A stretch of DNA of 64,000 nt from Flavobacterium weaverense. Lineage in GTDB: Bacteria > Bacteroidota > Bacteroidia > Flavobacteriales > Flavobacteriaceae. The first letter of the stretch is position 1; the number at the start of each line of letters is the position of its first letter. This document shows positions 1,804 through 27,007 of this stretch, piece by piece. The stretch is from NCBI RefSeq assembly GCF_003688495.1, contig NZ_REFH01000010.1, positions 434,001-498,000 on the forward strand. The letters are read 5' to 3'. A program made the translations under genes and the position numbers. Below the pieces are notes generated by a model. It was given only the letters and a program-made list of their open reading frames with translations. It searched no databases and was not told where the DNA came from.

Positions 1804-2355
1804 CTAATGTAAGAAAAAAACTTTTTTTGATGCAATACTAATATTGTTAATGTTTTAGTTAAATGATGGCGATGATTAAAAAGTTTTTTAAGAGGGAAAA
1901 GAGTGTAGTTTAGGTAAGAGGTATGTAATTGTATTTAGTTTTACAATGTGATTTTTTAGCCACAGATTATTATGATTTAAAGGATTACTTTTTTAATAAT
2001 TTGAGAATTAGTGGAAGTTGAGAGTATCAGGGTAAGCTAAGTCCATATTTTTATTTTTTAAATACATCTTTATCATTTAACTGTAGTTAGAATGTAAAGC
2101 TATTTTAAAGTAGTAAGATTCTTGAAACAGATTATTCTGATTATCATAATTTTAGATTTGGAAATGGTTATTATTGAAGCTTTTGATATCTTACTTTAGC
2201 ATCTACTCTTATTATTTTTGCAACAGATTAATTTATCTATAAAAAAGTAGGAAATTTTTTTTTTTGGTTTTGTTTAACCTTTTTGGTTTAAAAACGAACT
2301 TTTTTGCAAAGTTTAGAGTGTATTGCGAGGTTTGTAATGAAATTTATTTTACATT
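1804..2355. other. Intergenic region between divergent genes
   Basis: About 550 bases of very AT-rich DNA with no convincing gene. It contains a degenerate CACAGATTA-type stretch near 1960-1990 and again near 2125, resembling the short repeats seen near 8270 and 8550. Its right end holds the upstream sequence of the MerR-type regulator, described separately. Confidence 0.5.
2268..2285 (+). promoter_or_regulatory. Upstream copy of the crtI promoter motif
   Basis: The 18-base stretch TTTTGTTTAACCTTTTTG differs at one base from 3278-3295 in the crtI promoter (TTTTGTTTAATCTTTTTG). It contains one TGTTTAA half-site (2271-2277) but lacks a good matching right half at the expected spacing. It could be an extra regulator-binding site upstream of the MerR gene. 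This is inferred from sequence similarity only. Confidence 0.45.
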
Positions 2356-2387
2356 TGTTTAATAAATTTGAAGTAACGATGAACAAT
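2356..2387 (+). promoter_or_regulatory. Candidate promoter and autoregulatory operator of the MerR gene
   Basis: TGTTTAA (2356-2362) is followed after 17 bases by TGAACAAT (2380-2387), which matches 6 of 8 bases of the right half-site TAAACAAA found at crtI. A perfect Bacteroidota -7 element, TAAATTTG (2363-2370), lies between the half-sites. It ends eight bases before the ATG at 2379, so the transcript would be leaderless or nearly so. The right half-site overlaps the start codon. A bound regulator would block RNA polymerase. No good -33 TTG was found at standard spacing. Confidence 0.5.
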
Positions 2388-3275
2388 ATAAAAAATGTAT
2401 TCAGCATTAAGGATCTGGAGAACCTTTCGGGGATAAAAGCGCATACGATACGAATCTGGGAAAAGCGATATGATATTTTGCAACCCATGCGTACCGATAC
2501 GAACATTAGATTATATGATTTGGCCAGCCTACAAAAGCTTTTAAATATCACATTGTTACATGATTATGGATATAAAATATCAAAAATAGCTACTTACCCG
2601 CAGGACAAAATACCATCATTAGTACGCGAAATAATTTCGAATAAAACAGCTAAAAGTCATGCGATTAGTGAGCTGAAAATGTCGATGATGAATTTTGATC
2701 AGGAGTTATTTTTCAATACATACAACTGGCTTATCGCTGAAAAATCATTCAAAGAAATCTTTCATCAGGTTTTTATTCCATTAATGAACGAATTAGGTCT
2801 GTTATGGCAATCTGATACGATTACACCAGCACATGAGCATTTCATAAGTTACCTAATTAAACAAAAATTATTAGTTAATACTGAGAAATTACAAGTACTA
2901 AAACCGAGTAAAACGGATAAGGTTTTTGTTCTTTCTTTACCAATGAACGAAATTCACGAATTAGGTTTGATGTATCTAAATTATGAAATTTTGTTACAAG
3001 GTTATAAGACGATTTATTTAGGCGAAAGCATGCCAGTCGATAACTTAAAGCATTTAAAAAAGCATTTTGATTCAATTGTTTATGTTTCTTATCTTACAGT
3101 TCAACCAGAACGTGATTTACTTGACGGATATATCAATAAAATGTCAGAAGAATTAGTTGATGATACTACAGAATTATGGTATATTGGTAGAATGGTAGAA
3201 TTTATAAAAAGAGATGGACTTTCAGAGAATATTTCGATTTTTGCCTCTATTGGCGATTTAGTAAATCAAATTTAG
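2379..3275 (+). CDS. carH: MerR-family transcriptional regulator, CarH/LitR-type B12 photoreceptor
   Basis: A 298-residue regulator. Residues 7-75 form a MerR-type winged helix (FSIKDLENLSGIKAHTIRIWEKRY). The rest matches the two-part cobalamin-binding region of CarH. It has the W-x9-EH signature (W143, E153-H154) and the E-x-H-x-x-G motif (E191, H193, G196), whose histidine is the lower axial cobalt ligand in CarH. In that family, adenosylcobalamin holds the tetramer on DNA in the dark and light breaks it. The start at 2379 was chosen because the MerR domain begins there and a -7 element lies just upstream; the frame is also open further 5'. It sits directly upstream of crtI. B12 binding and light sensing are inferred from conserved residues. 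Confidence 0.85.
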   Translation: MNNIKNVFSIKDLENLSGIKAHTIRIWEKRYDILQPMRTDTNIRLYDLASLQKLLNITLLHDYGYKISKIATYPQDKIPSLVREIISNKTAKSHAISELKMSMMNFDQELFFNTYNWLIAEKSFKEIFHQVFIPLMNELGLLWQSDTITPAHEHFISYLIKQKLLVNTEKLQVLKPSKTDKVFVLSLPMNEIHELGLMYLNYEILLQGYKTIYLGESMPVDNLKHLKKHFDSIVYVSYLTVQPERDLLDGYINKMSEELVDDTTELWYIGRMVEFIKRDGLSENISIFASIGDLVNQI

Positions 3276-3277
3276 TA

Positions 3278-3312
3278 TTTTGTTTAATCTTTTTGTATAT
3301 TTGCTAAACAAA
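3278..3312 (+). promoter_or_regulatory. crtI promoter with inverted-repeat operator
   Basis: A perfect 8-base inverted repeat, TTTGTTTA (3279-3286) and TAAACAAA (3305-3312), brackets a -7 element TATATTTG (3296-3303). The ATG of crtI starts at 3312, eight bases after the -7 element, so the mRNA would be leaderless or nearly so. The core TGTTTAA-N17-TAAACAAA is identical to the one between the TetR and TIGR01777 genes. It is a candidate operator for the CarH-like regulator encoded just upstream. Base identity is seen directly; protein binding is inferred. Confidence 0.65.
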
Positions 3313-4781
3313 TGAAACATACAATTACAATTATAGGTTCGGGATTTTCAGCAATGGCAGCATCTTGCTATTTGGCTAAAAGCGGACATCAAGTTACCGT
3401 TTACGAAAAAAATTCAAGTATTGGTGGTCGTGCCAGACAGTTAAAAAGAGAAGGTTTTACATTTGACATGGGGCCGAGCTGGTACTGGATGCCGGATGTA
3501 TTCGAACGATTTTTTGCTGATTTTGGAAAGAAAACTACAGATTATTATGAGTTAATAAAGCTGTCACCAGCGTACCGCGTGTATTATGGAATTGATGATT
3601 TTATTACTATCGCTGATAATTTAGAAGAAATTATTACTTCATTTGAAGCAATTGAAAATGGTAGTGGAAAGTTATTGAAAAACTTTATGGCTGAAGCCAA
3701 AAGTAATTATGATATTGCTATAAAAGAATTAGTGTATCGTCCGGGTGTTTCTCCTCTAGAATTGATTACTCCTGAAACTGCTATGAAAGTAGGACAGTTT
3801 TTTAGTAATATCAGTAAGGACGTTAGAAAGAAGTTTAAAAATAAAAGATTAATTCAAATTCTAGAATTTCCGGTTTTATTTCTTGGCGCAAAGCCATCAG
3901 ATACACCCTCATTTTATAGTTTTATGAATTATGCTGATTTTGGTTTAGGTACTTGGCACCCAAAAACAGGAATGTTTGACGTAGTTCGTGCTATGGAAAC
4001 ATTAGCAAGAGAATTGGGAGTGCAGTTTGTTATGAATGCCAATATTGAAAAGATAATCGTTGAGAATAAAACGGCTAAAGCGATTGTTGTTAATGGAAAA
4101 AGAATTGATTCTGATTTAGTGTTAAGTGGTGCAGATTATCAACATACAGAGACTTTATTGGATCAGGAACACAGAGCCTATTCAGAGAAATACTGGGACA
4201 GCCGCGTGTTTGCACCTTCGTCATTGTTGTTTTATGTTGGTTTCAACAAAAAAATAGAAAATATATCACATCATGCTTTATTCTTTGATGTTGATTTTTA
4301 CCAGCATGCAAGAGATATTTATGATGAGCCGCAATGGCCTGCAGAACCTTTGTTTTATGCTAACTTTCCATCGGTAACTGATAAAACTGCTGCTCCTGAA
4401 GGAATGGAATCTGGATTTTTTCTAGTGCCATTAGCGCCTGGGATAAATGACACTGAAGCCTTACGTGAAGAATATTTTGATAAGATAATGGATCGTTTTG
4501 AGTCGCTGACAAAGCAAAGTGTCAGAAATAATATTATATTTAAACAATCGTTTTGCAAAAATGATTTTGTTTCTGAATACAACTCATACAAAGGGAATGC
4601 TTATGGAATGGCGAATACGCTGTTGCAAACTGCATTTTTGAGACCGAAGTTAAAGAGTAAAAAAGTTAAGAATTTATATTTTACGGGACAATTAACTGTT
4701 CCAGGACCAGGAGTTCCACCTGCATTAATTTCTGGAAAATTAGTGTCGGAATTAATTAATAAGCAATTTTCAGAGCAATAA
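3312..4781 (+). CDS. crtI: Phytoene desaturase / carotenoid dehydrogenase
   Basis: A 489-residue FAD-dependent desaturase that would convert phytoene to lycopene or related desaturated carotenes at the membrane. The N-terminus has the dinucleotide-binding motif (IIGSGFSAMAAS), then IGGRARQ and FDMGPSWYW. The C-terminus carries the family signature LYFTGQLTVPGPGVPPA. Length is usual for CrtI. It follows the MerR gene by 36 bases, under its own promoter and operator, and leads the carotenoid operon; crtB begins one base after its stop. Assignment is secure; the exact number of desaturations cannot be read from sequence. Confidence 0.95.
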   Translation: MKHTITIIGSGFSAMAASCYLAKSGHQVTVYEKNSSIGGRARQLKREGFTFDMGPSWYWMPDVFERFFADFGKKTTDYYELIKLSPAYRVYYGIDDFITIADNLEEIITSFEAIENGSGKLLKNFMAEAKSNYDIAIKELVYRPGVSPLELITPETAMKVGQFFSNISKDVRKKFKNKRLIQILEFPVLFLGAKPSDTPSFYSFMNYADFGLGTWHPKTGMFDVVRAMETLARELGVQFVMNANIEKIIVENKTAKAIVVNGKRIDSDLVLSGADYQHTETLLDQEHRAYSEKYWDSRVFAPSSLLFYVGFNKKIENISHHALFFDVDFYQHARDIYDEPQWPAEPLFYANFPSVTDKTAAPEGMESGFFLVPLAPGINDTEALREEYFDKIMDRFESLTKQSVRNNIIFKQSFCKNDFVSEYNSYKGNAYGMANTLLQTAFLRPKLKSKKVKNLYFTGQLTVPGPGVPPALISGKLVSELINKQFSEQ

Positions 4782-4782
4782 T

Positions 4783-5625
4783 ATGAAGCAATTATTTGAC
4801 GATGTATCTTTTAAGTGTAGTAAGCTAGTTACTAAAAACTATAGCACTTCTTTTTCTTTGGCGGTATATATGTTGTCGCCAAGTATTAGAGACGCCATCT
4901 ATAGCATCTATGGATTTGTTCGTTTTGCGGATGAAATTGTGGATAGTTTTCATGGTTTTGAAAAGGAAGATTTAATTACCGAGTTTGAAGAAGACTATTA
5001 CAAAGCTTTTGATAGAGGAATTAGTTTGAATCCAATATTGAATTCTTTCCAACAAACAGTTAAGGAATACAACATCACTGACGATTTGATTCAGGCGTTT
5101 TTACGTAGTATGAAGTTAGATTTGATAAAGTCAGATTACCACAGCAAAGAAGAATATGATGCGTATATTTACGGGTCGGCTGACGTTGTCGGTTTGATGT
5201 GTCTTAAAGTTTTTGTAGCTGGTGACAATGAACGTTATAATCAGCTTAAAGATGAAGCGATGCGTTTAGGTTCAGCATTCCAAAAAGTGAATTTTCTACG
5301 TGATTTAAAGGATGATAATTTAGTTTTAAATCGTAATTATTTTCCTGGTGTTGATTTGAATTCATTTGATGAAAATGCGAAAACAGCAATCATTAATGAG
5401 ATTAATGAAGATTTTAGAGTGGCTTATGAAGGGATTGTAAAATTACCTATCGAAGCAAAATTTGGTGTTTACACTGCTTTTGTATATTACAAAAAACTGC
5501 TTAAAAAATTAGAAAACACACCTTGTGAAGAAATAGGAAGCGCAAGAATCAGGGTTTCTAATTATACTAAAGCGGGACTTTTAGCAAGGTCTTTTGTGTC
5601 TTACAAATTAAAGTTAGTGCAATAA
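4783..5625 (+). CDS. crtB: Phytoene synthase
   Basis: A 280-residue squalene/phytoene synthase that condenses two geranylgeranyl diphosphates to phytoene. Both aspartate-rich metal-binding motifs are visible: D50-E-I-V-D54 and D174-L-K-D-D178 within QKVNFLRDLKDD. Length matches the short bacterial form. It begins one base after the crtI stop, so the two are surely one transcript. Squalene-synthesising relatives exist, but the crtI-crtB-crtZ context makes phytoene synthesis the clear reading. Confidence 0.95.
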   Translation: MKQLFDDVSFKCSKLVTKNYSTSFSLAVYMLSPSIRDAIYSIYGFVRFADEIVDSFHGFEKEDLITEFEEDYYKAFDRGISLNPILNSFQQTVKEYNITDDLIQAFLRSMKLDLIKSDYHSKEEYDAYIYGSADVVGLMCLKVFVAGDNERYNQLKDEAMRLGSAFQKVNFLRDLKDDNLVLNRNYFPGVDLNSFDENAKTAIINEINEDFRVAYEGIVKLPIEAKFGVYTAFVYYKKLLKKLENTPCEEIGSARIRVSNYTKAGLLARSFVSYKLKLVQ

Positions 5626-5670: not shown

Positions 5671-6111
5671 ATGATATTTTTTCTGATTTTTTTCGGTACT
5701 TTTTTAATAATGGAATGTGTTACTTGGTTAACGCATAAGTACGTAATGCACGGATCAATGTGGTATTTCCACGCAGATCACCACCAACCAAAATATGCCA
5801 ACGTTTTCGAACGAAATGATGTGTTTTTTGTAATCTTTGCGATTCCTAGTATAGCACTTTTTTACTTTGGTGTAGAAGGAGGATTGAATTATTTATTCTT
5901 CATCGGCTTGGGTATAATGTTTTATGGTTTTTGCTATTTTATGATACATGATGTATTAATTCACCAGCGTTTTAAATGGTTCAAGCACACTAACAACAAA
6001 TATTTAATTGGGCTTAGAAAAGCACACAAAGTACATCACAAGCACTTAGGCAAAGAGCACGGAGAATGCTTCGGGATGCTTTTCGTTCCTTTCAAGTATT
6101 ATAAAATTTAA
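5671..6111 (+). CDS. crtZ: Beta-carotene hydroxylase
   Basis: A 146-residue integral-membrane di-iron hydroxylase of the CrtZ/fatty-acid-hydroxylase superfamily. It has the expected histidine clusters: HKYVMHG, FHADHHQP, HDVLIHQ and HKVHHKHLG. It would hydroxylate beta-carotene rings to give zeaxanthin, the usual yellow pigment of flavobacteria. It follows crtB by 45 bases in the same operon. Its substrate needs a lycopene cyclase, and none is encoded in this window, so the cyclase must be elsewhere if the pathway is complete. Confidence 0.92.
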   Translation: MIFFLIFFGTFLIMECVTWLTHKYVMHGSMWYFHADHHQPKYANVFERNDVFFVIFAIPSIALFYFGVEGGLNYLFFIGLGIMFYGFCYFMIHDVLIHQRFKWFKHTNNKYLIGLRKAHKVHHKHLGKEHGECFGMLFVPFKYYKI

Positions 6112-6424: not shown

Positions 6425-6886
6425 ATGAAAATTTACAAACAAGAAACCGTTCAGCACGTAAACGCAACAGTAGAGGAATGCTGGGTTTTTTTCTCAAATC
6501 CGCAAAATCTACAAAAGATAACTCCTGAAGGAATGGGTTTTCAAATCACAGATTTCGATCATAAATCGATGTATCCAGGACAGATAATTCAATATAAAGT
6601 AACGCCACTTTTTGGTATCACATTATCTTGGATGACACTGATTACAAACGTTAAAGAAAATAGTTATTTTATAGATGAGCAGAAGTTTGGGCCTTACAGT
6701 TTTTGGCATCACAAGCATTTCTTCGAAGCAACTGCAACAGGTACAAAAATGACTGATGTTGTTCATTATGGTTTACCGCTTGGTTTCATAGGTCGTATTA
6801 TGAATACATTAGTGGTTAAGAATAAATTAAAATCTATTTTCGAATACCGCGTAACTAAGGTGGACGAAATGTTTAATGGAAAATAA
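6425..6886 (+). CDS. SRPBCC (START-like) family protein
   Basis: A 153-residue protein with the SRPBCC/polyketide-cyclase-like fold pattern: an N-terminal strand with VNATVEECWVFFSNPQNLQKITP, a central strand series, and a C-terminal helix. Such proteins bind hydrophobic ligands in a cavity. Its stop overlaps the photolyase start (TAATG), so the two are translationally coupled. Its place between pigment genes and a photolyase suggests a part in the photoprotective programme, but the ligand is unknown. Confidence 0.8.
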   Translation: MKIYKQETVQHVNATVEECWVFFSNPQNLQKITPEGMGFQITDFDHKSMYPGQIIQYKVTPLFGITLSWMTLITNVKENSYFIDEQKFGPYSFWHHKHFFEATATGTKMTDVVHYGLPLGFIGRIMNTLVVKNKLKSIFEYRVTKVDEMFNGK

Positions 6887-8181
6887 TGAGCAAGCAAGAA
6901 GTTTCTTTTTTTTGGTTTAGACGTGATTTGCGTTTAGAAGATAACGTAGGTTTGTTTCATTCTTTGCAATCTAAATATCCCGTCATTCCTTTATTTATAT
7001 TTGACGATGCTATTGTAGAAAGTTTACCTGAGACTGATCCCAGAGTTGGTTTTATTCATGAAAATCTTTCAAAGATTAATGAGAAATTAAAAGAAAGTCA
7101 AAGCTCTATTTTAATTAAAAAAGGTAAAACGCTAAACGTTTGGCAAGCACTTTTAGAGGAGTACGACATCAAAGAAGTTTTCTTCAATAAAGATTACGAA
7201 CCTTACGCAATAAAAAGAGACGTACTCATCAGCGAACTATTAGAAAAAAATAGTGTTCTTTCTAGTTCATTTAAAGACCAAGTAATTTTTGAAGAAAAAG
7301 AAATTACAAAAGCTGATGGATTGCCATACACCGTTTATACCCCTTTTAAAAATAAATGGTTAGAGAAGTATAAAACAATGGCCCCTGTTGCTGAATACGA
7401 CAGTTTAAGCCTTCTGCAGAACTGCTTTAAGCGTAAATTCCATTTCCCTACATTAGAAGATATCGGTTTTAAAGAAAGTAAAATAAAAGTAAGAGATCAC
7501 AATTTAAAATTTGTTTCTAATTACCAAGACATACGCGATTTTCCAGCATTAGATAAGACTAGTTATTTATCAGCACATTTACGTTTTGGAACAGTAAGCA
7601 TCCGAAAATTGGTGAATTGGGCATTTCATAAAAACGATGTTTTTTTGAGTGAATTGATTTGGAGAGAATTTTTTATGCAAATCCTTTTTAGTTTTCCAAA
7701 AGTAGTTACTCAAAATTTTAAAGCTGCTTATGACGGAATCCAGTGGCGTAATAATGAAGAGGAATTTAAACGTTGGTGCAACGGAACAACAGGATATCCA
7801 ATGGTTGATGCAGGAATGCGCCAATTAAACGAAACTGGATACATGCACAATAGAGTTCGTATGGTTGTGGCTAGTTTTTTATGCAAGCATTTACTAATTC
7901 AATGGCAGTGGGGAGAAGCTTACTTCGCTGAAAAATTACTTGATTACGAAATGTCAGCTAACGTTGGGAATTGGCAATGGGCTGCAGGAACGGGTTGCGA
8001 TGCTGCACCATATTTTAGAGTATTTAATCCCGAAATCCAACAAAAGAAGTTTGACGAAAAGGGAGTGTACGTTCGTAAATGGATTAAAGAATTCGAATTA
8101 GGATACGGAAAACCCATGGTTGAACATGCTATGGCGAGAGACCGCGCAATTGTTACTTATAAGGCTGGAATTATAAAATAA
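6886..8181 (+). CDS. phrB: Deoxyribodipyrimidine photolyase, class I
   Basis: A 431-residue light-driven DNA repair enzyme that splits cyclobutane pyrimidine dimers. The N-terminal antenna domain starts FFWFRRDLRLEDN. The C-terminal FAD domain has WREFFMQILF, TGYPMVDAGMRQL, MHNRVRM and NVGNWQWAAGTGCDAAP, all standard for class I photolyases. It is coupled by a one-base overlap to the SRPBCC gene. It is one of three photolyase/cryptochrome family genes in this island. CPD specificity is inferred from family motifs. Confidence 0.9.
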   Translation: MSKQEVSFFWFRRDLRLEDNVGLFHSLQSKYPVIPLFIFDDAIVESLPETDPRVGFIHENLSKINEKLKESQSSILIKKGKTLNVWQALLEEYDIKEVFFNKDYEPYAIKRDVLISELLEKNSVLSSSFKDQVIFEEKEITKADGLPYTVYTPFKNKWLEKYKTMAPVAEYDSLSLLQNCFKRKFHFPTLEDIGFKESKIKVRDHNLKFVSNYQDIRDFPALDKTSYLSAHLRFGTVSIRKLVNWAFHKNDVFLSELIWREFFMQILFSFPKVVTQNFKAAYDGIQWRNNEEEFKRWCNGTTGYPMVDAGMRQLNETGYMHNRVRMVVASFLCKHLLIQWQWGEAYFAEKLLDYEMSANVGNWQWAAGTGCDAAPYFRVFNPEIQQKKFDEKGVYVRKWIKEFELGYGKPMVEHAMARDRAIVTYKAGIIK

Positions 8182-10311: not shown

Positions 10312-10911
10312 TTAGCTTAATTTATTCGAAACTAAACTAATAAATTCTTTTCTAGTTTTATTTTTCTCAAAAGCTCCTGTAAAAGAAGATGTAGTTGTTA
10401 CAGAGTTTTGTTTTTGAATTCCGCGCATTTGCATGCACATGTGCTGAGCTTCAATTACAACTGCAACTCCTAGTGGTTGTAACGCCTCTTGGATACAATC
10501 TTTAATTTGGTCCGTCAATCTTTCTTGAACTTGCATCCTTCTTGCGAAAGCATCAACAACTCTTGGGATTTTGCTTAAACCTACAATTTTTCCATTTGGA
10601 ATATATGCTACGTGCGCTTTTCCAAAAAATGGTAACATGTGGTGCTCACACATAGAATATACTTCGATATCTTTCACAACTATCATTTGTCTATGATCTT
10701 CAGTAAACATTGCTGATTTCAAAATCTCTAAGGGATCTAATCCGTAACCATGCGTTAGGTATTGCATTGCTTTTGCAACTCTTTCTGGTGTTTTTTCAAG
10801 ACCTTCTCTATCAACGTCTTCTCCTAATGTACCAATTATTGTTTTATAATTACCAGCTAGTGCCGCAGTAACTTCTGTATCGTATTGTTCTATTTTTTCG
10901 TAGCTTTTCAT
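10312..10911 (-). CDS. folE: GTP cyclohydrolase I
   Basis: A 199-residue GTP cyclohydrolase I, the first enzyme of folate/pterin synthesis, making 7,8-dihydroneopterin triphosphate from GTP. The zinc ligands are visible as C88 and H91 ([12 protein letters not shown]) and C159 (QHMCMQMRG). Length fits the family. It is the last gene of the leftward photolyase operon. Photolyases use methenyltetrahydrofolate as antenna, so a light-linked folE makes sense. I cannot tell whether it is the only folE of the genome. Confidence 0.93.
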
Positions 10912-10952
10912 CTCTTATTATTATGGTTATATATTTTACTATTGGGGTTTTA

Positions 10953-11636
10953 TTAGATTTTGAATGTTACGATTCCGTAGTCCATTTCAAAAATTTGTCC
11001 TGAAATAGATTTCGCATTTTCAGATATTAAGAAGTTAGCCATACTTGCTACTTCTTCTGGTTTTAAGTATCCTTTCATTGGATGACGTTCTACCATATTT
11101 TCTTTCATTCGATCATTCCTTAAAATTCCAGCAGCAAGTGTGGTTTCTGTAATCGTAGGAGCAATCGCATTGATACGAACAACTGAAGCTAACTCAGCAC
11201 CTAGTGATTTTACTAAACCTTCAATTCCTGCTTTTGCAGTAGCGATACTAGCATGATAGGGCATTCCTAATTTTACCGCAACTGTACTAAATAAAACTAT
11301 TGATGGATCAGTTCCTTTTTTTAGTGTTGGTAAATACTTTTGGATTGCTTTTACTGCACCAATAACGTTTATTTCAAAGTCAGTTCTGAAATCTTCAATA
11401 CTTAAACTTCCTATTGGTTTTAAGTTGATAGAACCTGGACAGTAGATTAAGGTATCAATGCTTTCAATTTCCGGCAGTGCATCTTGCAATACATCTAATG
11501 AAAAGTGCTTTAAATTAGCATGTTCAATTTCAGGAGCATTGCGGCTAATGTTGTAGACTGCGTTCGTTTCTAATTGTTGTAACAAAATCGCATTACCAAT
11601 TCCTTTGCTACCACCTATGATTACAATGTTTTTCAT
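10953..11636 (-). CDS. SDR family protein lacking the catalytic tyrosine
   Basis: A 227-residue classical-length short-chain dehydrogenase. It has the cofactor loop IIGGSKGIGNAI, S117 of the active site (LFSTVA) and K135, but the tyrosine of YxxxK is replaced by isoleucine (I131-A-T-A-K135 within HASIATAKAGIEG). The C-terminal NAIAP and SGQIFEMDYG segments are normal. Loss of the tyrosine suggests altered chemistry or a non-catalytic role. It lies between folE and the TIGR03643 gene in the photolyase operon, so a pterin-related substrate is possible but unproven. Confidence 0.85.
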   Translation of the reverse strand: MKNIVIIGGSKGIGNAILLQQLETNAVYNISRNAPEIEHANLKHFSLDVLQDALPEIESIDTLIYCPGSINLKPIGSLSIEDFRTDFEINVIGAVKAIQKYLPTLKKGTDPSIVLFSTVAVKLGMPYHASIATAKAGIEGLVKSLGAELASVVRINAIAPTITETTLAAGILRNDRMKENMVERHPMKGYLKPEEVASMANFLISENAKSISGQIFEMDYGIVTFKI

Positions 11637-11682
11637 ATTTTATACCAATCAGTTATTATTCTTATTTTACTTTTAGCGAAGG

Positions 11683-11967
11683 TTAACGCTTTGAAATTTT
11701 ATTATTATTAATTTGCCTCTGCATACTACATTTAAAGCGACCTTCTCGAAAATCCCTTAATTTTTCATGCTTTGTTTTTCGGCCTTGAACTCTTTCGCGC
11801 CACATTCTAAAACTAGAGGCTTTCATTTCAGTTCGCATCAAGTCGATTACTTCTTGCTCTTTTAAGCCAAACTGCATTAAAATTGCGTCAAAAGTGGTTC
11901 GGTCTTCCCAAGCCATTTCTATAATTCGATCTTTGTCAATATCGTTTAGTTCTTTTTTTGTCGTCAC
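11683..11967 (-). CDS. TIGR03643 (DUF2805) family small protein
   Basis: A 94-residue protein matching the TIGR03643/DUF2805 family: KDRIIEMAWEDRTTFDAI, then GLKEQEVIDLMRTEMKASSFRMWRERV, then a basic tail. The family usually occurs beside photolyase or cryptochrome genes, and its function is unknown. The helix-turn-helix-like pattern and basic charge would fit nucleic-acid contact, but that is speculation. It lies 39 bases after the photolyase-like gene and before the SDR gene. Confidence 0.85.
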   Translation of the reverse strand: MTTKKELNDIDKDRIIEMAWEDRTTFDAILMQFGLKEQEVIDLMRTEMKASSFRMWRERVQGRKTKHEKLRDFREGRFKCSMQRQINNNKISKR

Positions 11968-12006: not shown

Positions 12007-13491
12007 CTATTCGCTGTCGCCAATGTCAGACATAGTATGTAATTTTAATATTCGCAGACTTTCCTCTTTTACCATTGGATTTTTCTTCATTTTCCACAAA
12101 AAGTCACTTGCAAATTTTCTCGTCCGTTCCATATTTACAATAGGTTTTGGATAATTCACTCCTAATTCGAAATCATTAAACTTTTGATCTAAATAGGTCA
12201 TTTTGTAAGGTTCATGTACAAATGCTCTAGGTAAATTGTCTAATTCTGGAACCCATTTTTTTATAAATTCTCCGTCTGGATCGTGATCGTAACTATTTTT
12301 TATTGGATTATAAATACGTAACATATTGATTCCAGTTTCGCCAGCTTGCATTTGTAATTGCGGAAAGTGAATGCCAGGTTCAAAATCTAAAAACATTTGC
12401 GATAGGTGAGATGTAGCATCTTGCCACGGTTGCCACAAGTTATGAGTAAAAAAAGAAACTAGCATAGCTCTCATTCTAAAATTCAGGTAGCCGGTTTCAT
12501 TTAAACAACGCATACATGCATCAATTAAGGGAAATCCTGTTTGGCCTGTTTTCCATGCTTCTATGTAATTTTCATTTTGTTTCTTCTTAAGAGAATGAAA
12601 ACCTTTATTAACACTTTCGAATTCCATGATTTCTTCCATTTCAAATTTCTGAATGAAATGTGCTTGCCACGTCAATCGAGATACAAAAGAGTCAATTTGC
12701 TTTTTATCAGAACACGTAAGTCGGAATGTCGCTGCCTTTTGTAAAACTTGTCTCGAAGATAAATTTCCCCAAGCAATGTAAGGCGATAATCTGCTGCAGC
12801 TTTTTCTAGCAAGTAAAGGTTTTGAAATATTGTAGCTATAGCTGTGATACCGATCATCTAGAAAAGTCTGTAGATATTTCCCAGCCATGGTTGATCCTCC
12901 TTTTTGGAAAATAGCATCCGGAATGGTTTCTAAATTTTTCTTATCTAATACATTTTCAAGTTCTATAATTTCGCTATTTTTCAAGAAATCATTTGGGTTT
13001 GGATTAAAAACGAATAAAGGATCGTTCATATAATTCTCCCAATTAGTAACCCAATTTGATCTATTACTTAAACCTCTGAAAATTCCATTATTGATATTTT
13101 CTACCCAATTGATTTGGTTGTTTTTGCAAAATCTTTTAAAACTTTTGTCCCTTTCGTAGGTAATTTTTAAACCGGTTTCTTGATGAGAAAATACTGTATC
13201 AATTTTATAAGTTTCCTCAATAATATTCAACGCCTGAATTACTTCAGATGAAACGGCTAAAACATGTGTGTTAAGCGGTTGCAATTGAGTATTAATATCT
13301 ATAATCGATTGCTTAATAAAATTCCAATGTCTCGCACTATAATGCGAATCATGCTCTAATGATTTTTCGAAAACATAAAGCAATAAAGTTGGAATACCTG
13401 TTTTTGACGCATTAAAAATCGCCTCGTTGTCTTGCAAACGAAGGTCTCTTTTAAACCAAACTACATTGATAATTTTTTTATTTGTGCTCAT
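12007..13491 (-). CDS. Divergent cryptochrome/photolyase-family flavoprotein
   Basis: A 494-residue member of the photolyase/cryptochrome family. The antenna-type domain opens VVWFKRDLRLQDNEAIF. The FAD domain has SRLSPYIAWGNLSSRQ, RLTWQAHFIQKFE, TGFPLIDACMRCLNETGYLNFRMRAM and MLRIYNPIKNS. The loop that reads NxGNWQWAAG in ordinary photolyases is here GIHFPQLQMQAGETG, so the flavin surroundings and the tryptophan chain differ. It is neither a DASH protein nor a standard CPD enzyme by these motifs. It starts six bases after the DASH gene and is surely co-transcribed. Its activity, repair or signalling, is unknown. Confidence 0.85.
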   Translation of the reverse strand: MSTNKKIINVVWFKRDLRLQDNEAIFNASKTGIPTLLLYVFEKSLEHDSHYSARHWNFIKQSIIDINTQLQPLNTHVLAVSSEVIQALNIIEETYKIDTVFSHQETGLKITYERDKSFKRFCKNNQINWVENINNGIFRGLSNRSNWVTNWENYMNDPLFVFNPNPNDFLKNSEIIELENVLDKKNLETIPDAIFQKGGSTMAGKYLQTFLDDRYHSYSYNISKPLLARKSCSRLSPYIAWGNLSSRQVLQKAATFRLTCSDKKQIDSFVSRLTWQAHFIQKFEMEEIMEFESVNKGFHSLKKKQNENYIEAWKTGQTGFPLIDACMRCLNETGYLNFRMRAMLVSFFTHNLWQPWQDATSHLSQMFLDFEPGIHFPQLQMQAGETGINMLRIYNPIKNSYDHDPDGEFIKKWVPELDNLPRAFVHEPYKMTYLDQKFNDFELGVNYPKPIVNMERTRKFASDFLWKMKKNPMVKEESLRILKLHTMSDIGDSE

Positions 13492-13497
13492 GTGTTT

Positions 13498-14802
13498 CTA
13501 AAATAATTGTTGTTGCAACCATAACTTCTGAAATTTTGATTCTCCATCATATCGTTCCGCTTGCAATGGAATATTGAACTTTCGATCTCTTGGATCATTG
13601 CCCACACCAGATACATACATCCAATTGCCATAATTACTGTGGACATCATAATCTATTAACGTTGACTCAAAGTAAGCAGCTCCAATACGCCAATCTAAAA
13701 GTAAATTTTTAGCAAAGTAAGACGCTACATTTTGTCTTCCACGATTGCTCATCCATCCTGTCTGCTTTAATTCTATCATGTTAGCATTTACAAAAGGCTC
13801 AGCTGTTGTTCCATTTATCCAAGCGTTAATTGCCGATGGATTTGTTTTCCAATCGTAGTTTTTATCTAAAATGCCTCCGATTTTAAAAATCGATTTGCCA
13901 TTTTTAAGAGAAACGTATTTGAAATAATCTCTCCAAATTAATTCGAAAATTAACCAATAAGTCGAATCGTTTTTGCCTATTTCTCGTTCGTATTTTAATA
14001 TTTCCCAATAAATAGTTTTAGCTGAAATACTTCCATTAGCTAACCAAGGAGAAAATTTTGAACTAAAATCTTTACCTATTAAACCATTGCGCGTTAATTT
14101 ATAAACACCAAGTTTTTTAGTTTCCCAAAAATAGTGTTGAATTCTTTCTAACGCCTGATTTTCGCCACCATGATACGGAAAAGCAGTTCGAGAATCTGTA
14201 GCAAAATCACTAAAACCTAATGCCTCCAATGAAGGGATCTCAGTTTCATTTGTTATCAGATTCTCTTCTGCCACTCTATTTACTACAAACTCAGCCCTAA
14301 CCTTTGTATATTTTTCGCACTTTGTTCTAAATTGTGTAAACACATTTGGAATAAAATTCAATTCAAATGGAACATCGACTGGATGAAATAAAAACTGATT
14401 GTAAGTCGATTTAAATTCAATCTCGCTAGAAACTTTAGATTTTACATTTTTTAAAACTTCCATTTCTTCAGTTGTCCATTCTTCCTGAAGATATATTGAA
14501 GTAATTTCGTGTGATGCTGTAATCTCAGCAATGCGGTCTTCTGGTTTTTGATTGTAAACCAAAAGAGAAATATTCAGTTTTTGTAAATTCTCCTTAAGTT
14601 CCGTAATTGTTTCAATTAAAAACTTAGCTCTGAATTTTTCAGTATTTTTAAATCCGAAAGTTGTCACTTCATAATGTCTGGGATCAAAACAATATACTGC
14701 AATAACAGAATCGTTTTCAGCAATTGCATTAGACAATGATTCATTATCATTTACTCTTAAATCGTTTCTAAACCAAACTAACCCTTTTTGTTTCTTTTGC
14801 AT
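13498..14802 (-). CDS. DASH-family cryptochrome
   Basis: A 434-residue cryptochrome of the DASH type. It opens [17 protein letters not shown]. The FAD domain includes [52 protein letters not shown] and the DASH hallmark [25 protein letters not shown] proteins are blue-light flavoproteins that repair pyrimidine dimers in single-stranded or looped DNA. Its start lies inside the end of the DUF2256 gene (25-base overlap), which implies coupled translation. Confidence 0.92.
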
Positions 14803-14912
14803 TTTTCACTACAATATTTGACTTCTTCCCAAACTTTCTCCCATTTCTTCCGCCATGTAAAAGGTCGGTTGCAAACCAAACACATTTTAGTAGGCAGATT
14901 TTCCTTTTTCAC
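14778..14912 (-). CDS. DUF2256 small zinc-ribbon-like protein
   Basis: A 44-residue protein with two cysteine pairs, [10 protein letters not shown] and YCSEKC, and the conserved WRKKWEKVW between them. This is the DUF2256 pattern; four cysteines suggest a zinc ribbon. The start is GTG at 14912, overlapping the TAG stop of the kinase gene by one base, and the end overlaps the DASH start by 25 bases. DUF2256 genes usually occur beside photolyases and cryptochromes. The gene is short and easily missed, but the motif match and tight packing make it real. Confidence 0.85.
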
Positions 14913-16219
14913 TATTTATACTTTTCGAATTCGTTCACTGTTATTTTAGCTTTCAAATCAAACATTAAGTTATACAAGCCAAAAAACGTTCTATTCATGT
15001 ATATGAAGTGTTTCGAACCTCTGTTTCCATTCATTTTTTTCAAATTCGTGTCCTTAGAAAAGCGTTCGCCTAATTGAGCGATACTTTCAAAAAACGTTTC
15101 GTCAGAGAAATCAAAAGTTTTATCTTGGAATGGTTTAGTAAATAGAGAAAGCAAATCGTGAAACATTTCAGTGAAATAGGCTATTTCCTCTTTCGAATCA
15201 TCCGTGCGTAAAATTTCTAATTCAAATAATTTTGCATTAAAGATTTCAGCATTATTAATTACGTTTTTATCTATTAATTCAAAGTAAGGAATATAGAAGT
15301 CGGTTGGAATTTTTTTCATGCAACCAAAATCCAGTGCAACTAATTCATTTTTATCGTTTACTAAAAAGTTTCCAGGATGCGGATCAGCATGTACTTTTTT
15401 CAAAATATGAATTTGGTACATATAAAAATCCCATAGCGCTTGACCAACTTTATCAGCTACCGCTTGATCTGTGTTTTTCTTAGTGAACTCAGATAAGTGA
15501 ATTCCTGTCATCCAATCCATTGTGATGATTTTTTCAGAAGAATATTTAGCATAATATTCTGGAAAAACTAAATTTTCAATCTTTTTACAAGCTTCGACAA
15601 CTTCTTGACTTTGTTCTAGTTCCAATAAATAATTAGTTTCCTCAATTAATTTATCTTCTACTTCTTTAAAGTACTTATCAGAATCTTTTCCTTGTAAGTT
15701 GAACATTCTAATAGCTATTGGTTTAACCATTGCTAAATCAGATGAGATACTATTTGCCACGCCTGGATATTGAATTTTGACCGCTAATTTTTTTCCATCT
15801 TTCATAGCAACATGGACTTGACCAATGCTTGCTGCATTTACTGAAGTTGCATTGAATTCATCAAATATCTCATAAGGTGTTTTACCAAAGTTGTTTTTGA
15901 AAGTCTTCAACACTAAAGGTGCAGATAATGGTGGAACTGAAAATTGAGAAAGTGAAAACTTCTCTACATACGCTTGCGGTAAGAAACTTTTGTCCATACT
16001 CAACATTTGCGCAACTTTCAATGCACTTCCCTTTAGGCTTTTCAAACCATCGTAAATATCCTCAGCATTATCTTCGTTGAGTTTATCCCGTGTCAAATCT
16101 GAATTGACCATTTTCTCACCGTAATATTTCAAATAATTTACTCCTACTTTTGCACCAGTTTGCACTAGTTTTGTAGCTCTTTCAATTTTTGAAGTTGGTA
16201 TGTAGTCTATCGTTTTCAT
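14912..16219 (-). CDS. ABC1/AarF/UbiB-like atypical kinase
   Basis: A 435-residue protein of the ABC1/UbiB atypical kinase family. It has [23 protein letters not shown] (an alanine/lysine ATP-binding region), [11 protein letters not shown] (catalytic loop) and ALDFGCMK (metal-binding DFG-like site). Upstream, [14 protein letters not shown] matches the family's KxGQ-type extension. UbiB supports ubiquinone synthesis in proteobacteria, but flavobacteria use menaquinone, so the job here must differ. Its start overlaps the TetR stop by one base, which makes it part of the light-response operon. Confidence 0.85.
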
Positions 16220-16878
16220 TATTTGTTGTATATTTTTTCTTTGAAAATAAATTTTCCAAAGTCGATTAAGCTGTCTATTGGAGCAATGTTCATTAATTCG
16301 AAAGTCGCTTTTACTGATTTTTCAATGTAGATGTCTGTTTTTTCAAAAGCAGGTGATGAATCTTCCATCCAGAACTTTAATGTCAATAGCAGTTGAATCC
16401 ATGAAGTTTCTTGAAATGCTTTCTCTTGAAAATTTTGAAGTTTCTCTTGTTGTGTTCTAAAATCATCTGAAATAATTTCAGTCAAATAATTTTTAAAGCT
16501 GTTTCTAAGACCAGATAATTGCATTAATTTTTTCAACTGATTACTCTGCTCTTTTAAAACTAACATCACATAACTTCTGTTTGCCGTTAGGATTTCAAAG
16601 AATGTAAAGTAAAAACTTAGCATCTTGCTTCTCATGTCATAAGTTTCATAATCTGCATTTTTAGCAAGAAGTTCTGTAGTCTTTTCGACAAACATTTTGA
16701 AAATTTCCTTCTCAATACTTTCTAATGTTCCAAAAAAAGCATAAAATTCAGTTTCAGTAAAATCATTCATTTTCGTGAAATGATAAACAGATTTTGGTTT
16801 TTCACTATGCTCCAATACATAATCCATGTACATTGAAACGATTTTGTCTTTTGTTATTGCTGTTTTTTTAGTAGCCAT
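16219..16878 (-). CDS. TetR-family transcriptional regulator
   Basis: A 219-residue predicted TetR-type regulator. The N-terminus (ITKDKIVSMYMDYVLEH... FTETEFYAFFGTLESIEKEIF) has the helix pattern of a TetR DNA-binding domain. The remainder is helical, fitting a ligand-binding or dimer domain. It leads the eight-gene leftward operon and is coupled to the kinase gene by a one-base overlap. Its promoter region holds the TGTTTAA-N17-TAAACAAA operator, so it may act below the CarH-like regulator. Its ligand is unknown. The DNA-binding helix is divergent, so the family call is probable rather than certain. Confidence 0.7.
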   Translation of the reverse strand: MATKKTAITKDKIVSMYMDYVLEHSEKPKSVYHFTKMNDFTETEFYAFFGTLESIEKEIFKMFVEKTTELLAKNADYETYDMRSKMLSFYFTFFEILTANRSYVMLVLKEQSNQLKKLMQLSGLRNSFKNYLTEIISDDFRTQQEKLQNFQEKAFQETSWIQLLLTLKFWMEDSSPAFEKTDIYIEKSVKATFELMNIAPIDSLIDFGKFIFKEKIYNK

Positions 16879-16916: not shown

Positions 16917-16948
16917 TGTTTAACGATATTTTAATAAAGTTAAACAAA
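16917..16948. promoter_or_regulatory. Shared operator in the TetR/TIGR01777 divergent promoter
   Basis: TGTTTAA (16917-16923) and TAAACAAA (16941-16948) are separated by 17 bases, exactly as at crtI (3281-3287 and 3305-3312). The extended arms GTTTAAC and GTTAAAC are also perfect inverted repeats. The site lies about 40 bases upstream of the TetR start and 48 bases upstream of the TIGR01777 start. It could control both directions. Identity of the motif is seen directly; the binding protein is inferred to be the CarH-like regulator. Confidence 0.6.
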
Positions 16949-23507: not shown

Positions 23508-24290
23508 TTAAACAATTATAAACTTTCCTTTTTCTGGGTCAAAAACAATATGTTCGTCATTAAATAATCTACTAAAACTGCCTTTTGCAATAAAATTACA
23601 AGGTTCGTCTTGAATTACAGTTTTTGGTGTCATAATGATCATCTCGTCACTCAATTGTATTGCCATATCGATATCATGTGTCGAAAAAAGAATACATTTA
23701 TCTGTTTCCTTTGTTAACTTTTTAAGCAATTTAAATAGCGAAACTTTATGTAACAAATCAAGATGCGTCGTTGGTTCGTCCAAAATTATTAAAGGTGTAT
23801 CTTGAGCTAGCGCTCTTGCAATCAAAACCTTTTGTAATTGACCATCACTTATTTCGAAATGCTTTTTATCAGCTAAATGAGTAATTTGAGTTAACTCCAT
23901 TGCCTCATTTACCTTAGTAATGTCTTCTGCGGTTAATTTTCCAATCCAGTTCGTGTACGGTTGTCGCCCTAACGCGATCAATTCGAAAACAGTTAAATTG
24001 CTAGGTGGTAATTTTTCAGTCAGCACTACACTTAAATTTTTGGCTAATGTTAGAGCATCTAGTTCGTGAATATTAACTTGGTTTAGTAGTACGGTTCCTG
24101 ATATTGTCTTTTGAATTCCCGTAATCGTTCGTAATAGGGTAGATTTCCCAATTCCGTTGGCGCCTATTAAAGAGATCAACTTTCCTTTTTTCAGAGATAA
24201 ATCAATATCAGATGCGATTACAGTATTGTGTTTTTTGGAAGTGTAACCAATGGATATTTTGGAAGCTTGTAAAATGATTTCGTTTTTCAT
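23508..24290 (-). CDS. btuD: ABC transporter ATP-binding protein, probable cobalamin importer
   Basis: A 260-residue ATPase of the FecCD/BtuD class. It has the Walker A (LIGANGIGKSTLLR), the signature region (HFEISDGQLQKVLIARALAQ), Walker B (PLIILDEPTTHLD) and the switch histidine (FSTHD). It would power import through the adjacent permease. It overlaps the permease stop by one base. Iron-siderophore import is the family alternative, but the riboswitch-controlled BtuB and BtuG-like genes next door favour cobalamin. Confidence 0.85.
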   Translation of the reverse strand: MKNEIILQASKISIGYTSKKHNTVIASDIDLSLKKGKLISLIGANGIGKSTLLRTITGIQKTISGTVLLNQVNIHELDALTLAKNLSVVLTEKLPPSNLTVFELIALGRQPYTNWIGKLTAEDITKVNEAMELTQITHLADKKHFEISDGQLQKVLIARALAQDTPLIILDEPTTHLDLLHKVSLFKLLKKLTKETDKCILFSTHDIDMAIQLSDEMIIMTPKTVIQDEPCNFIAKGSFSRLFNDEHIVFDPEKGKFIIV

Positions 24291-25321
24291 TAATTGATCA
24301 TTTTTTGTTTTCTAATCAAGAGCCAAATTACGATTGGTGCGCCAAAAATACTTGTAACAGCGTTTATTGGCAAGGTAATGTCACTTCCCGGAAGTTGGGA
24401 AATACTATCACAAATAAGCATAATTAATGCACCAAATAGGATCGTACTCCAAAATAATATTGTGTGGTTACTCGTTTGGAAAACTAGTTTTGCAATGTGA
24501 GGAACTGCTAATCCTACAAATGCAATAGGACCTGCAAAAGCGGTGATGCTTCCAGCCAAAATACTAGTTGCAAATATGATTATCATTCGTGATTTTTTAT
24601 AGTTCAATCCTAAACTTTTTGCGTAGTTTTCGCCAAGAAGTAAAGCGTTCAAAGGTTTTATGCTTAAAATACTTAATAGTAAACCGCTCACAACGCAACA
24701 AGTTAAAATCACAATTGCAGTCCACGATAAATTTCCTAAATTTCCTAATGACCAAAAAGTGAATTTTTGTAATTGTTCTGCAGTGCTGAAATAAGTTAGT
24801 GTTCCTACAATTGCACTGGTTAAACTCCCAAACATAAGCCCGACAATTAATATCGCCATAGTATCGCGCAAACGATGTGAAACCGTTAAAACTGCCAGTA
24901 AAACTGCAAAACTTCCTAGACTAGATGCCAAAACAATTCCATAAGAAGACAATAAAAATGTCGCTAAAAATGAAGGCATCAGTGCAGCGCCTAAAATAAC
25001 TATTGCTACTCCTAAACTAGCGCCAGAACTCAGTCCTAAAACGTACGGTCCAGCGAGAGGATTTCTAAATAAAGTTTGCATTAATAAACCACTTATAGAT
25101 AAGCCCATTCCCACAAGAATAGCTGCTAAAGCTTTAGGCAAGCGATAATTAACAATGATATAATGCCAAGTTTCTTTAGTGGGAGTTCCTCCAATAAGAC
25201 TATTAAAAACTTCCTTTAAAGGAATGGACACTGATCCTAAACTAATGTTTATTAAGAACAACAAGATAACTCCAAAGGTTAGGAGTACAAAAAGTAAGGA
25301 GTTTCGGTTTGAGTTGTTCAA
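24290..25321 (-). CDS. btuC: FecCD-family ABC transporter permease, probable cobalamin importer
   Basis: A 343-residue permease with about ten membrane segments and the family signatures LPKALAAILVGMGLSISG, NPLAGPYVLGLSSGASLG and GPIAFVGLAVPHIAKLV. These match BtuC/FecCD permeases that carry corrinoids, siderophores or heme. It lies between btuD and the binding-protein gene with a one-base overlap and a one-base gap, so the three are one operon. The substrate is inferred from context. Confidence 0.87.
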   Translation of the reverse strand: MNNSNRNSLLFVLLTFGVILLFLINISLGSVSIPLKEVFNSLIGGTPTKETWHYIIVNYRLPKALAAILVGMGLSISGLLMQTLFRNPLAGPYVLGLSSGASLGVAIVILGAALMPSFLATFLLSSYGIVLASSLGSFAVLLAVLTVSHRLRDTMAILIVGLMFGSLTSAIVGTLTYFSTAEQLQKFTFWSLGNLGNLSWTAIVILTCCVVSGLLLSILSIKPLNALLLGENYAKSLGLNYKKSRMIIIFATSILAGSITAFAGPIAFVGLAVPHIAKLVFQTSNHTILFWSTILFGALIMLICDSISQLPGSDITLPINAVTSIFGAPIVIWLLIRKQKMIN

Positions 25322-25322
25322 T

Positions 25323-26459
25323 TTATTCTAATTTCTGAAAGAAAAAAAGTTCGTGCTTCGGTAGTAATTCAGGATGAAATATTTTAATTAGATCTTTTAG
25401 CACCCAATCTGGGCGTGTTGGCGACCATTCAAAATACACAATTCCTCCTTTTAAACCTTTCTTTACGCTATACGAATATACTTTTTTATTCTTAAAAGAA
25501 TCAAATTCCTTATAATGTGGATTACTATCCTCCATCTGTTTTAAAGAGGAAAAATCTCCAGGGCTAACCCAGAATTCGGCACTTTTAGCTTGATCTAATA
25601 CGGTTTCAAATGGCAAAGTTAAACTTCCAGTTCCTTTAGTATTTGACCATAAATAGTTTGATTGTGCGTCTTTCATAAATAGTGCTGCCCAACTTTCGCC
25701 TTGTGGAACGTACCATTGCTCTTGATACATCGCTCCGCTTAAAACAGTAGGTTTTGAAAGCGCTTTTTTGGCTAAAGCCAAAGTGCTATTGTATTCTTTT
25801 TCGATTTCAGTGAAGATTTCATTTGCTTTATTGTCCAATCCGTATAACGCACCGAAAAACTTGATCCATTCTGCTTTTCCAAGTGGTGATTGCTCGGTCC
25901 AGTCGCCATTAAAAATTACTTTTAAACCACTTTTTTGTAAATTGTCAACGGTGGGATTACTATTGCTCAAACCAAAACTAACTATTAAATCCGGTGCCAT
26001 ATCGATAAGCACTTCGGTATTAAGTGATTCATTTTTTCCAACTTCTCTAACTTTCCCAGAATCAATTAATTTTCTTGTTAGTGCAGATGAAATATAATCT
26101 GTGTTTGGAAATCCAACTAATGTTTTTTCGACACCTAACATTTCTAAGGCTGGAATGTGAGTAGTTGAGGTTACTACGATCGATTTTAAGGGGATTGGTA
26201 TGACAGGAAATTGCTTCAAACTATCTGGAATAATTCCGTCTTTTTCTTGTAAAATATAATTGAAATTTTCTTTGGCTCCAGGCCAAGGCTTTGTTATTTT
26301 AAGTATCGAAAAACCTTTGTATTTGTAAATTTCAAGTCCTTTAGCGTATAAGATTTCGTTTTTTACTGCAACTGTGTTTTCAGCACTAGTTTCTTTTTTA
26401 CATTGGACGAATAGCAAAAAGATAAGAAAAAAGTAAATTGTATTTTTAACGAATTTCAT
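25323..26459 (-). CDS. btuF: Lipoprotein solute-binding protein of the cobalamin ABC importer
   Basis: A 378-residue helical-backbone binding protein of the BtuF/FepB class. A lipoprotein signal is visible (FFLIFLLFVQCKKE), so it is anchored by C19 or so. The domain has VVTSTTHIPALEMLG, DLIVSFGLSN and a C-terminal lobe with SWAALFMKDAQSNYLW. The ATG at 26459 is preferred because the signal peptide begins there; an open frame extends 13 codons further. Upstream, on the minus strand, lies ACTATACTTTTG, an approximate -7 element. Cobalamin as ligand is inferred from neighbours. Confidence 0.85.
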   Translation of the reverse strand: MKFVKNTIYFFLIFLLFVQCKKETSAENTVAVKNEILYAKGLEIYKYKGFSILKITKPWPGAKENFNYILQEKDGIIPDSLKQFPVIPIPLKSIVVTSTTHIPALEMLGVEKTLVGFPNTDYISSALTRKLIDSGKVREVGKNESLNTEVLIDMAPDLIVSFGLSNSNPTVDNLQKSGLKVIFNGDWTEQSPLGKAEWIKFFGALYGLDNKANEIFTEIEKEYNSTLALAKKALSKPTVLSGAMYQEQWYVPQGESWAALFMKDAQSNYLWSNTKGTGSLTLPFETVLDQAKSAEFWVSPGDFSSLKQMEDSNPHYKEFDSFKNKKVYSYSVKKGLKGGIVYFEWSPTRPDWVLKDLIKIFHPELLPKHELFFFQKLE

Positions 26460-26571
26460 AAAGCAATTTTTTTTTACAAAAGTATAGTTTTGTTTCAATA
26501 AAAAAACTGCTGTGTGATATTAGGCACTTATTTTCTACTATCGATAGCGTAACTTTGACAAAAAATAAATC

Positions 26572-26776: not shown

Positions 26777-26784
26777 TACCTTTG
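26777..26784 (+). promoter_or_regulatory. Promoter -7 element of the cobalamin riboswitch transcript
   Basis: TACCTTTG fits TAnnTTTG and is placed about 12 bases before the start of the riboswitch. A -33 TTG at ideal spacing was not found. Confidence 0.5.
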
Positions 26785-26795
26785 CACCCGAATTA

Positions 26796-26962
26796 AGGTT
26801 GTATTTTGTTTTATGCAAAACACATTAAAAGGGAATTAGGTTTAAAACCTAAGCTGTTCCCGCAACTGTACGCTATTAAGCTTGTTGTTATCTACAAAAC
26901 CACTGTCACGCCTTGCGCGATGGGAAGGTAAACAACAAGACGCAAGCCAGGAGACCTGCCTT
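26796..26962 (+). ncRNA. Cobalamin (B12) riboswitch
   Basis: The conserved core is plain: AAAGGGAATTAGG (from 26828), GCTGTTCCCGCAACTGTA (26853-26870), CCACTG followed by a variable arm, GGGAAGG near 26921, and CCAGGAGACCTGCC (26947-26960). This is the adenosylcobalamin-type riboswitch. It precedes the BtuB-like receptor gene; bound B12 would lower expression. A later hairpin, GAACTTT-N7-AAGGTTC (about 26980-27000), directly before the ATG may be the expression platform. Confidence 0.95.
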
Positions 26963-27007
26963 ATTTCTTAACTAATATCGAACTTTCGGGAAAAAGGTTC
27001 AGAAATT

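Follow-up and report, generated by a model that had tools for sequence, protein, structure and literature searches.

A CarH-like regulator and a candidate palindromic operator at light-linked genes in Flavobacteriaceae

The carH–crt locus

The window, by which we mean the whole stretch of 64,000 nucleotides analysed here (Flavobacterium weaverense, contig NZ_REFH01000010.1, positions 434,001 to 498,000), carries a carH-like regulator gene directly upstream of carotenoid genes, as an earlier note on this DNA had stated: crtI starts at 3312 and is followed by crtB. The features of this run are numbered within the window.

2350..2357, plus strand: TACATTTG, a match to the TAnnTTTG −7 box, for carH (consensus from PMC9723704)
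2356..2385: proposed operator for autoregulation, an inverted repeat that matches at 11 of 12 arm bases and whose right arm overlaps the carH start codon
2379..3275, plus strand: carH-like regulator of 298 amino acids, with MerR DNA-binding, four-helix and Rossmann B12-binding domains (from Pfam, sequence match and model)
3281..3310: proposed operator of crtI, an exact copy of the inverted repeat TGTTTA-N18-TAAACA upstream of the gene, with the box TATATTTG inside it
3312..4781, plus strand: crtI, phytoene desaturase (729.7 bits with NCBIfam CrtID, whose cut-off is 640)
4783..5625, plus strand: crtB, phytoene synthase (SQS_PSY)
5671..6111, plus strand: hydroxylase gene that we take to be crtZ-like from synteny; it has no Pfam or NCBIfam match
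6886..8181, plus strand: DNA photolyase (Pfam), in the same gene run as carH and the crt genes

Translation of 2379-3275 yields 298 residues followed by a stop codon. A longer open reading frame with a TTG start is also present, and the ATG at 2379 is preferred because relatives begin there and because a TAnnTTTG box, the −7 box in Flavobacterium (PMC9723704), lies at 2350-2357. The product is matched in Pfam by MerR_1 (3.5e-13) and B12-binding_2 (4.9e-10), and its nearest solved structures by sequence are those of the class I protein CarH/LitR of Thermus thermophilus (PDB 5C8D and 5C8E; E about 2e-15), with an identity of about 24%. An AlphaFold model with a mean pLDDT of 89.8, based on a 51-sequence family alignment, predicts the CarH architecture of a MerR domain, a B12-binding four-helix bundle and a Rossmann domain. 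Foldseek ranks Thermus CarH first for this model, and VIA-align superposes the B12-binding parts of the two with a Z of about 18 and a root-mean-square deviation of 2.4-2.6 Å over about 194 residues. The NCBIfam CarH equivalog NF052513 reaches only 79.2 bits, far below its cut-off of 400, but is still the best-scoring model. The F. weaverense genome has no second copy of carH, the one further match (E 0.02) being confined to the DNA-binding domain; a second B12-binding_2 protein, from a 912-aa frame, is presumably methionine synthase.

Among the best 80 named relatives, taken from at least 594 matching stretches, crtI lies near carH in 79/80, crtB in 78/80 and the crtZ-like gene in 76/80, and in Thermus, as here, the regulator gene sits beside crt and photolyase genes. 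A flavobacterial carH (66-68% identity) also occurs in three metagenome bins, L077, L080 and L081, so that their titles (Bifidobacterium, Klebsiella and Rhizobium) look wrong; in L081 a crt gene was not seen near carH.

The cobalamin site and cofactor supply

The residues W143-x9-E153-H154 and E191-x-H193-x-x-G196, which the earlier note had read in this frame, occupy exactly those positions in the translated gene. Each of the six is invariant in the 110 A-type relatives (identity of 50% or more), with the Wx9EH motif and the lower-ligand part ExHx2G both intact in 110/110, and they are kept in 27 to 29 of 29 more divergent relatives; all 139 loci come from similarity searches, and some are near-duplicates of one another. 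Across the A-type set 25 of the 298 positions are invariant, a count that one partial sequence lowers in the N-terminal third.

The match to Thermus motifs that had been claimed holds for these six residues, but not for the neighbouring Thermus features, namely His132, GxxH and the full Rossmann motif. His132, which becomes a cobalt ligand after light in Thermus CarH (PMC10442372), corresponds to Gln144 here (Gln in 107/110 relatives), while Gly174 of GxxH, a glycine that acts via its main-chain carbonyl (PMC11796333), corresponds to Asn190 within NxxH (Asn in 105/110). The Rossmann signature is only partly retained: the x41 spacing of the classic motif x41-SxT/V-x22-27-GG leads to Tyr238-x-Thr240, with Thr in 110/110 and Ser absent, Tyr238 being the counterpart of Thermus Ser222 (Tyr in 96/110), and a single Gly of the GG is left (G270). 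Arg176 and Asp201, which we take to form the dimer salt bridge of Thermus CarH, are Ile192 (Ile in 102/110) and Ser217 (Ser or Thr in 105/110). Shared with Thermus are the MerR plus B12-binding architecture, Wx9EH, ExHx2G, GxxW and GxxxP. The light signature of SignatureFinder (PMC11796333) is represented by GxxW (G140-W143), EH (E153-H154) and GxxxP (G215-P219), and GxxH is missing from it.

Comparison with other members of the family places these differences in context. In PMC9304148, what sets CarH apart from CarA is the B12 motif combined with an intact Wx9EH. Myxococcus CarA, a B12-independent paralogue of CarH that has the same architecture and also controls carotenoid genes, lacks the Trp of Wx9EH but keeps the B12 motif and EH according to the same source, so that the contrast with B12-independent homologues drawn in the earlier note is broadly right; the Trp is present here and in 110/110 relatives, which rules out a CarA-like Trp loss. 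Class II LitR of Pseudomonas (PplR/PmlR2) likewise has a light regulon, to which photolyase, folE and cryptochrome-like genes belong (PMC9758184), but it keeps the four-helix bundle only and works with a LOV protein, whereas a Rossmann part is predicted in our model and aligns to that of CarH. CtMerR of Chloracidobacterium and photocobilins such as SasPcob are B12-binding photoreceptors that lack His132, as does the protein described here, and their structures give Z values of 15.7-17.5; photocobilins, however, carry a biliverdin domain, and the identity of CtMerR or photocobilins with the carH product is only 11-14%. The position of His132 is occupied by Gln in SasPcob and by Arg in CtMerR, two proteins that are reported to be light-responsive (PMC11796333), so Gln144 is in itself no bar to light sensing. 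Nor is a missing His after the Trp strictly disqualifying for a CarH protein, since this His is found in many, but not all, myxobacterial CarH sequences (PMC9304148). An ordinary MerR protein with chance residues was ruled out by the invariance of the residues and by the fold.

The window further contains the following features related to cobalamin.

26779..26977, plus strand: cobalamin riboswitch (101 bits), directly before the BtuB-like receptor gene
27008-28843: BtuB-like TonB receptor gene, after the riboswitch; best model below the curated cut-off
23508..26498, minus strand: transport genes of BtuD/BtuC type, with a gene for a binding protein; the best models stay under their curated cut-offs

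A PduO-type adenosyltransferase is also encoded in the F. weaverense genome, which, as judged from its genes, is equipped for both uptake and adenosylation of B12. Across 397 genomes of the family a carH match (1e-10) is found in 321 and PduO in 367. PduO is absent from 6/321 genomes with carH versus 24/76 without it (Fisher 5e-14, kinship ignored), in a comparison for which the two lists were crossed by hand and 10 of the 30 PduO-less genomes were deduced from gaps in the list; among high-quality genomes only, it is absent from 3/291 and 11/39, respectively, kinship again being ignored. Three near-complete genomes with carH (G008, G064 and G280) have neither PduO nor a CobA-type enzyme, and these may import AdoCbl or have a CarH that works otherwise.

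An inverted repeat at carH, crtI and other light-linked genes

The 30-bp inverted repeat TGTTTA-N18-TAAACA is newly described here and is found, by sequence, at carH, where TTTGTTTA forms one of its arms, at crtI, at a cryptochrome operon and at proteorhodopsin genes. In the window, the cryptochrome genes belong to a run on the minus strand.

16917..16946: exact inverted repeat before the minus-strand TetR-like run; proposed operator
16219..16878, minus strand: gene for a putative TetR-like regulator, first of the run
14912..16219, minus strand: presumably an ABC1-kinase-like gene
13498..14802, minus strand: cryptochrome DASH (497 bits, cut-off 317)
12007..13491, minus strand: cryptochrome/photolyase family protein, below subfamily cut-offs
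10312..11967, minus strand: last genes of the run, for a DUF2805 protein, a short-chain dehydrogenase and GTP cyclohydrolase I (folE)

The scores of the three sites (2356-2385, 3281-3310 and 16917-16946) were each reached by 0/200 shuffles. Elsewhere in the window the best repeat scores before SRPBCC-photolyase, DUF2867 and cryDASH and near the riboswitch lay within the shuffle range. The gap before the photolyase gene at 6886..8181 has no significant repeat, though relatives carry one there. Single half-sites, and a palindromic half combined with the promoter box at one mismatch, were not above chance in the window.

The spacing of the two arms is strongly preferred. When the 80 named loci and the window were searched (1.61 Mb, with the expectation taken from two-base block shuffles), TGTTTA-Nx-TAAACA occurred 55 times at x=18, where 0.45 were expected, and 8 times at x=19; no other x between 6 and 30 gave more than two occurrences. 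Within the 80 loci, 59 of the 61 repeat sites are found where carH, crtI or the TetR-like gene begins, and the site of L095 sits in the carH-crtI gap. One exact repeat, at L067:9151, lies about 850 bp upstream of carH and has no assigned target gene. Tandem direct TGTTTA repeats were considered as an operator and rejected, as they were not enriched in the 80 loci and the window with one shuffle as control.

At the carH promoters of A-type loci the repeat scores 11 or 12 of 12 in 102/109, against 0.6 in shuffles, and the 110 nt after carH hold a repeat of this quality in 45/109. The TAnnTTTG box is found within 120 bp of the carH start in 107/110 A-type loci and is followed by TTTA at 91 loci, compared with a background of 13/2155 (0.6%). 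In B-type CarH genes (n=19, 31-37% identical) the repeat of the gene's own promoter is shifted, with a TAGACA right arm and a spacing of 19, in 11/19, by our own count; the recognition helix reads LRKWETRY or LRKWESRY in most of the divergent set instead of IRIWEKRY. Such an altered repeat would be expected if CarH itself binds the repeat. Known CarH operators, including that of Thermus, are tandem 11-bp direct repeats of the form nnnnTnnACAn (PMC9304148), which PMC8156234 sets against the palindromes of ordinary MerR proteins; the arm TAAACA keeps the TnnACA core of these sites, but the proposed operator presents it as a palindrome.

The F. weaverense genome has nine exact sites, among them those at crtI and at the TetR-ABC1-cryptochrome run. 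Two more lie between divergent bacteriorhodopsin-family and beta-carotene 15,15'-dioxygenase genes, one near each start:

L164:5254-6985 (contig C3 of this genome, near 380,056-381,784): divergent proteorhodopsin/dioxygenase pair with two exact repeats between

By our reading of its sequence, the bacteriorhodopsin-family gene encodes a proteorhodopsin. One further site is at a flavin reductase and a photolyase-related gene and two are at fasciclin-domain genes, while near the sites at C3:458399 and C3:515627 a clear light gene was not found. With one mismatch allowed, the same genome holds 41 sites versus 67 for the reversed pattern, so that we accept as evidence only sites that match exactly, or that nearly do so at given promoters.

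Beyond this genome, proteorhodopsin is present in 100/397 genomes, of which 70 were taken for an upstream test (30 and 40 loci); four truncated loci were dropped and 66 were scored. A repeat of at least 11/12 lies within about 330 bp upstream of proteorhodopsin in 49/58 genomes with carH versus 1/8 without it (Fisher 1e-4, kinship ignored), the 58 including five with a divergent or partial carH. It is exact in 38 of the 49, and a good repeat is missing in 9/58. Genome-wide, exact sites number 120 versus 7 for the reversed pattern in 16 A-type genomes (92 versus 5 in 12 and 28 versus 2 in 4), compared with 14 versus 18 in 14 genomes without carH (Mann-Whitney 2.5e-6 between the two groups, kinship ignored). 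The A-type pattern is weak in ten B-type genomes (20 versus 10). The genomes for these counts were picked by hand, with near-complete ones preferred.

We inspected 42 sites in 40 regions of 7 genomes, excluding those at proteorhodopsin. Photolyase, cryptochrome or TetR-ABC1 operons account for 9/42 and the inside of a photolyase cluster for 2/42; a further 4/42 are at carH or crtI, 3/42 at folE, pterin-synthase or MsrA-folE genes, 7/42 at fasciclin genes, 4/42 at Porph_ging-like genes and 13/42 at other genes. The carotenoid-only frame of the earlier note is too narrow: genes for photolyase/cryptochrome, pterin, retinal and proteorhodopsin bear the likely operator as well.

Some neighbours of the repeat recur outside these classes. 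Fasciclin-domain (FAS1) genes adjoin it repeatedly, in several genomes (L162, L167, L290, L294, L297, L313, L315, L320 and L327), and genes for Porph_ging-like secreted proteins directly follow it in four genomes (L295, L307, L309 and L324), two identified by Pfam and two by likeness. The flavin-reductase promoter was rejected as a common target, since an exact site is found there in only 3/30 genomes; targets therefore vary.

A proposed light switch and its alternatives

The reading that we favour, and consider distinctly probable, is that the carH product is an AdoCbl-using light sensor of the CarH/LitR family, which would act as a dark repressor on the inverted repeat at light genes and be released by light. 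At the level of sequence, this reading draws on the residues, the predicted fold, the synteny, the conserved repeat and its co-occurrence with carH, and from these we infer AdoCbl binding, binding of CarH to the repeat, repression and its relief by light. In the dark, AdoCbl would be held between the four-helix bundle (W143, E153 and H154) and the Rossmann domain, with H193 as its lower ligand. AdoCbl-bound CarH would then form a DNA-binding oligomer on TGTTTA-N18-TAAACA, covering the TAnnTTTG box of light genes such as carH and crtI or lying close to it. Once light had broken the Co-C bond, the oligomer would be disrupted, which would release the carotenoid, photolyase/cryptochrome, pterin, retinal and proteorhodopsin genes. 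Lacking His132, the protein would need a light state other than the bis-His one of Thermus CarH.

The earlier note took the six residues to suggest a true light sensor. The residues themselves, the CarH fold, the genes for B12 uptake and adenosylation and the carH-PduO association all speak for this, but the residues alone are no proof, in view of Gln144, the partial Rossmann signature and the three near-complete carH-bearing genomes without a recognisable adenosyltransferase. Together with the loss of GxxH, these same points would fit a regulator of these genes that does not use AdoCbl to sense light, answering instead to another partner or signal with a B12 pocket that is vestigial or structural. 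Myxococcus CarA, or class II LitR, which is the effector of a LOV protein (PMC9758184), would be the model for such a protein. We consider this unlikely, since 110/110 relatives keep Trp, Glu, the two His and Gly, including the Trp that CarA lacks (PMC9304148), since SasPcob and CtMerR are reported to respond to light with Gln or Arg at the His132 position (PMC11796333), and since carH tracks PduO across genomes.

It is also conceivable, if quite improbable, that the repeat is bound not by CarH but by the TetR-like protein (16219-16878), with carH and crtI among its targets. Palindromic sites and autoregulation are usual for TetR proteins, and the TetR-like gene has the repeat at its own promoter, both in the window and in 8 of the 11 named loci where this gene occurs. 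Yet the repeat is found at carH promoters in 102/109 loci, varies together with CarH type, shares the TnnACA core with CarH sites and shows no enrichment in genomes without carH. Many MerR proteins activate from palindromes, and carH is associated with B12 metabolism genes, as might be expected if CarH bound the repeat to activate its targets, or if its repression were relieved when B12 is lost and not by light. This we regard as very unlikely, because the repeat encloses TAnnTTTG in 30/53 crt-type sites and 14/38 proteorhodopsin sites, a position suiting repression, because known CarH/LitR proteins are dark repressors (PMC9304148) and because the targets are light-linked genes.

Taking the AdoCbl-dependent repressor as the working model, it seems likely on balance that a CarH-like B12 photoreceptor is the master switch of light biology in many Flavobacteriaceae, operating through an unusual palindromic operator, and that its light state, and probably its oligomer, differ from those of Thermus. 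Rhodopsin genes are light-induced in a marine flavobacterium (PMC4831467, which reports on YIK11); the word regulator is absent from the main text of that article, and a regulator of the rhodopsin genes is not named in the excerpts consulted. A literature check of titles and abstract openings among the papers listed, in a library with few subscription journals, and of excerpts from PMC4831467 and PMC5932025 on flavobacterial rhodopsins, found neither a link of CarH or a MerR protein to proteorhodopsin nor a study of a flavobacterial CarH, and PMC12627116, which mentions proteorhodopsin and CarH, makes no link between them in the excerpts consulted. The carH product may be the long-sought light switch for flavobacterial light-harvesting genes. 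If so, the regulator of flavobacterial rhodopsin would be an identified gene, usually in single copy, with an identified DNA site, and the question of how rhodopsin is regulated by light would become directly testable. Bacterial phototrophy would also be tied to the supply of vitamin B12, because dark repression should fail without AdoCbl. Furthermore, a palindrome-binding variant without His132 would join the B12 photoreceptors and could be useful both for studies of mechanism and for green-light gene switches.

As a separate observation, the window carries a Flavo-1 small RNA (Rfam RF01705) at 63417-63503 on the minus strand.
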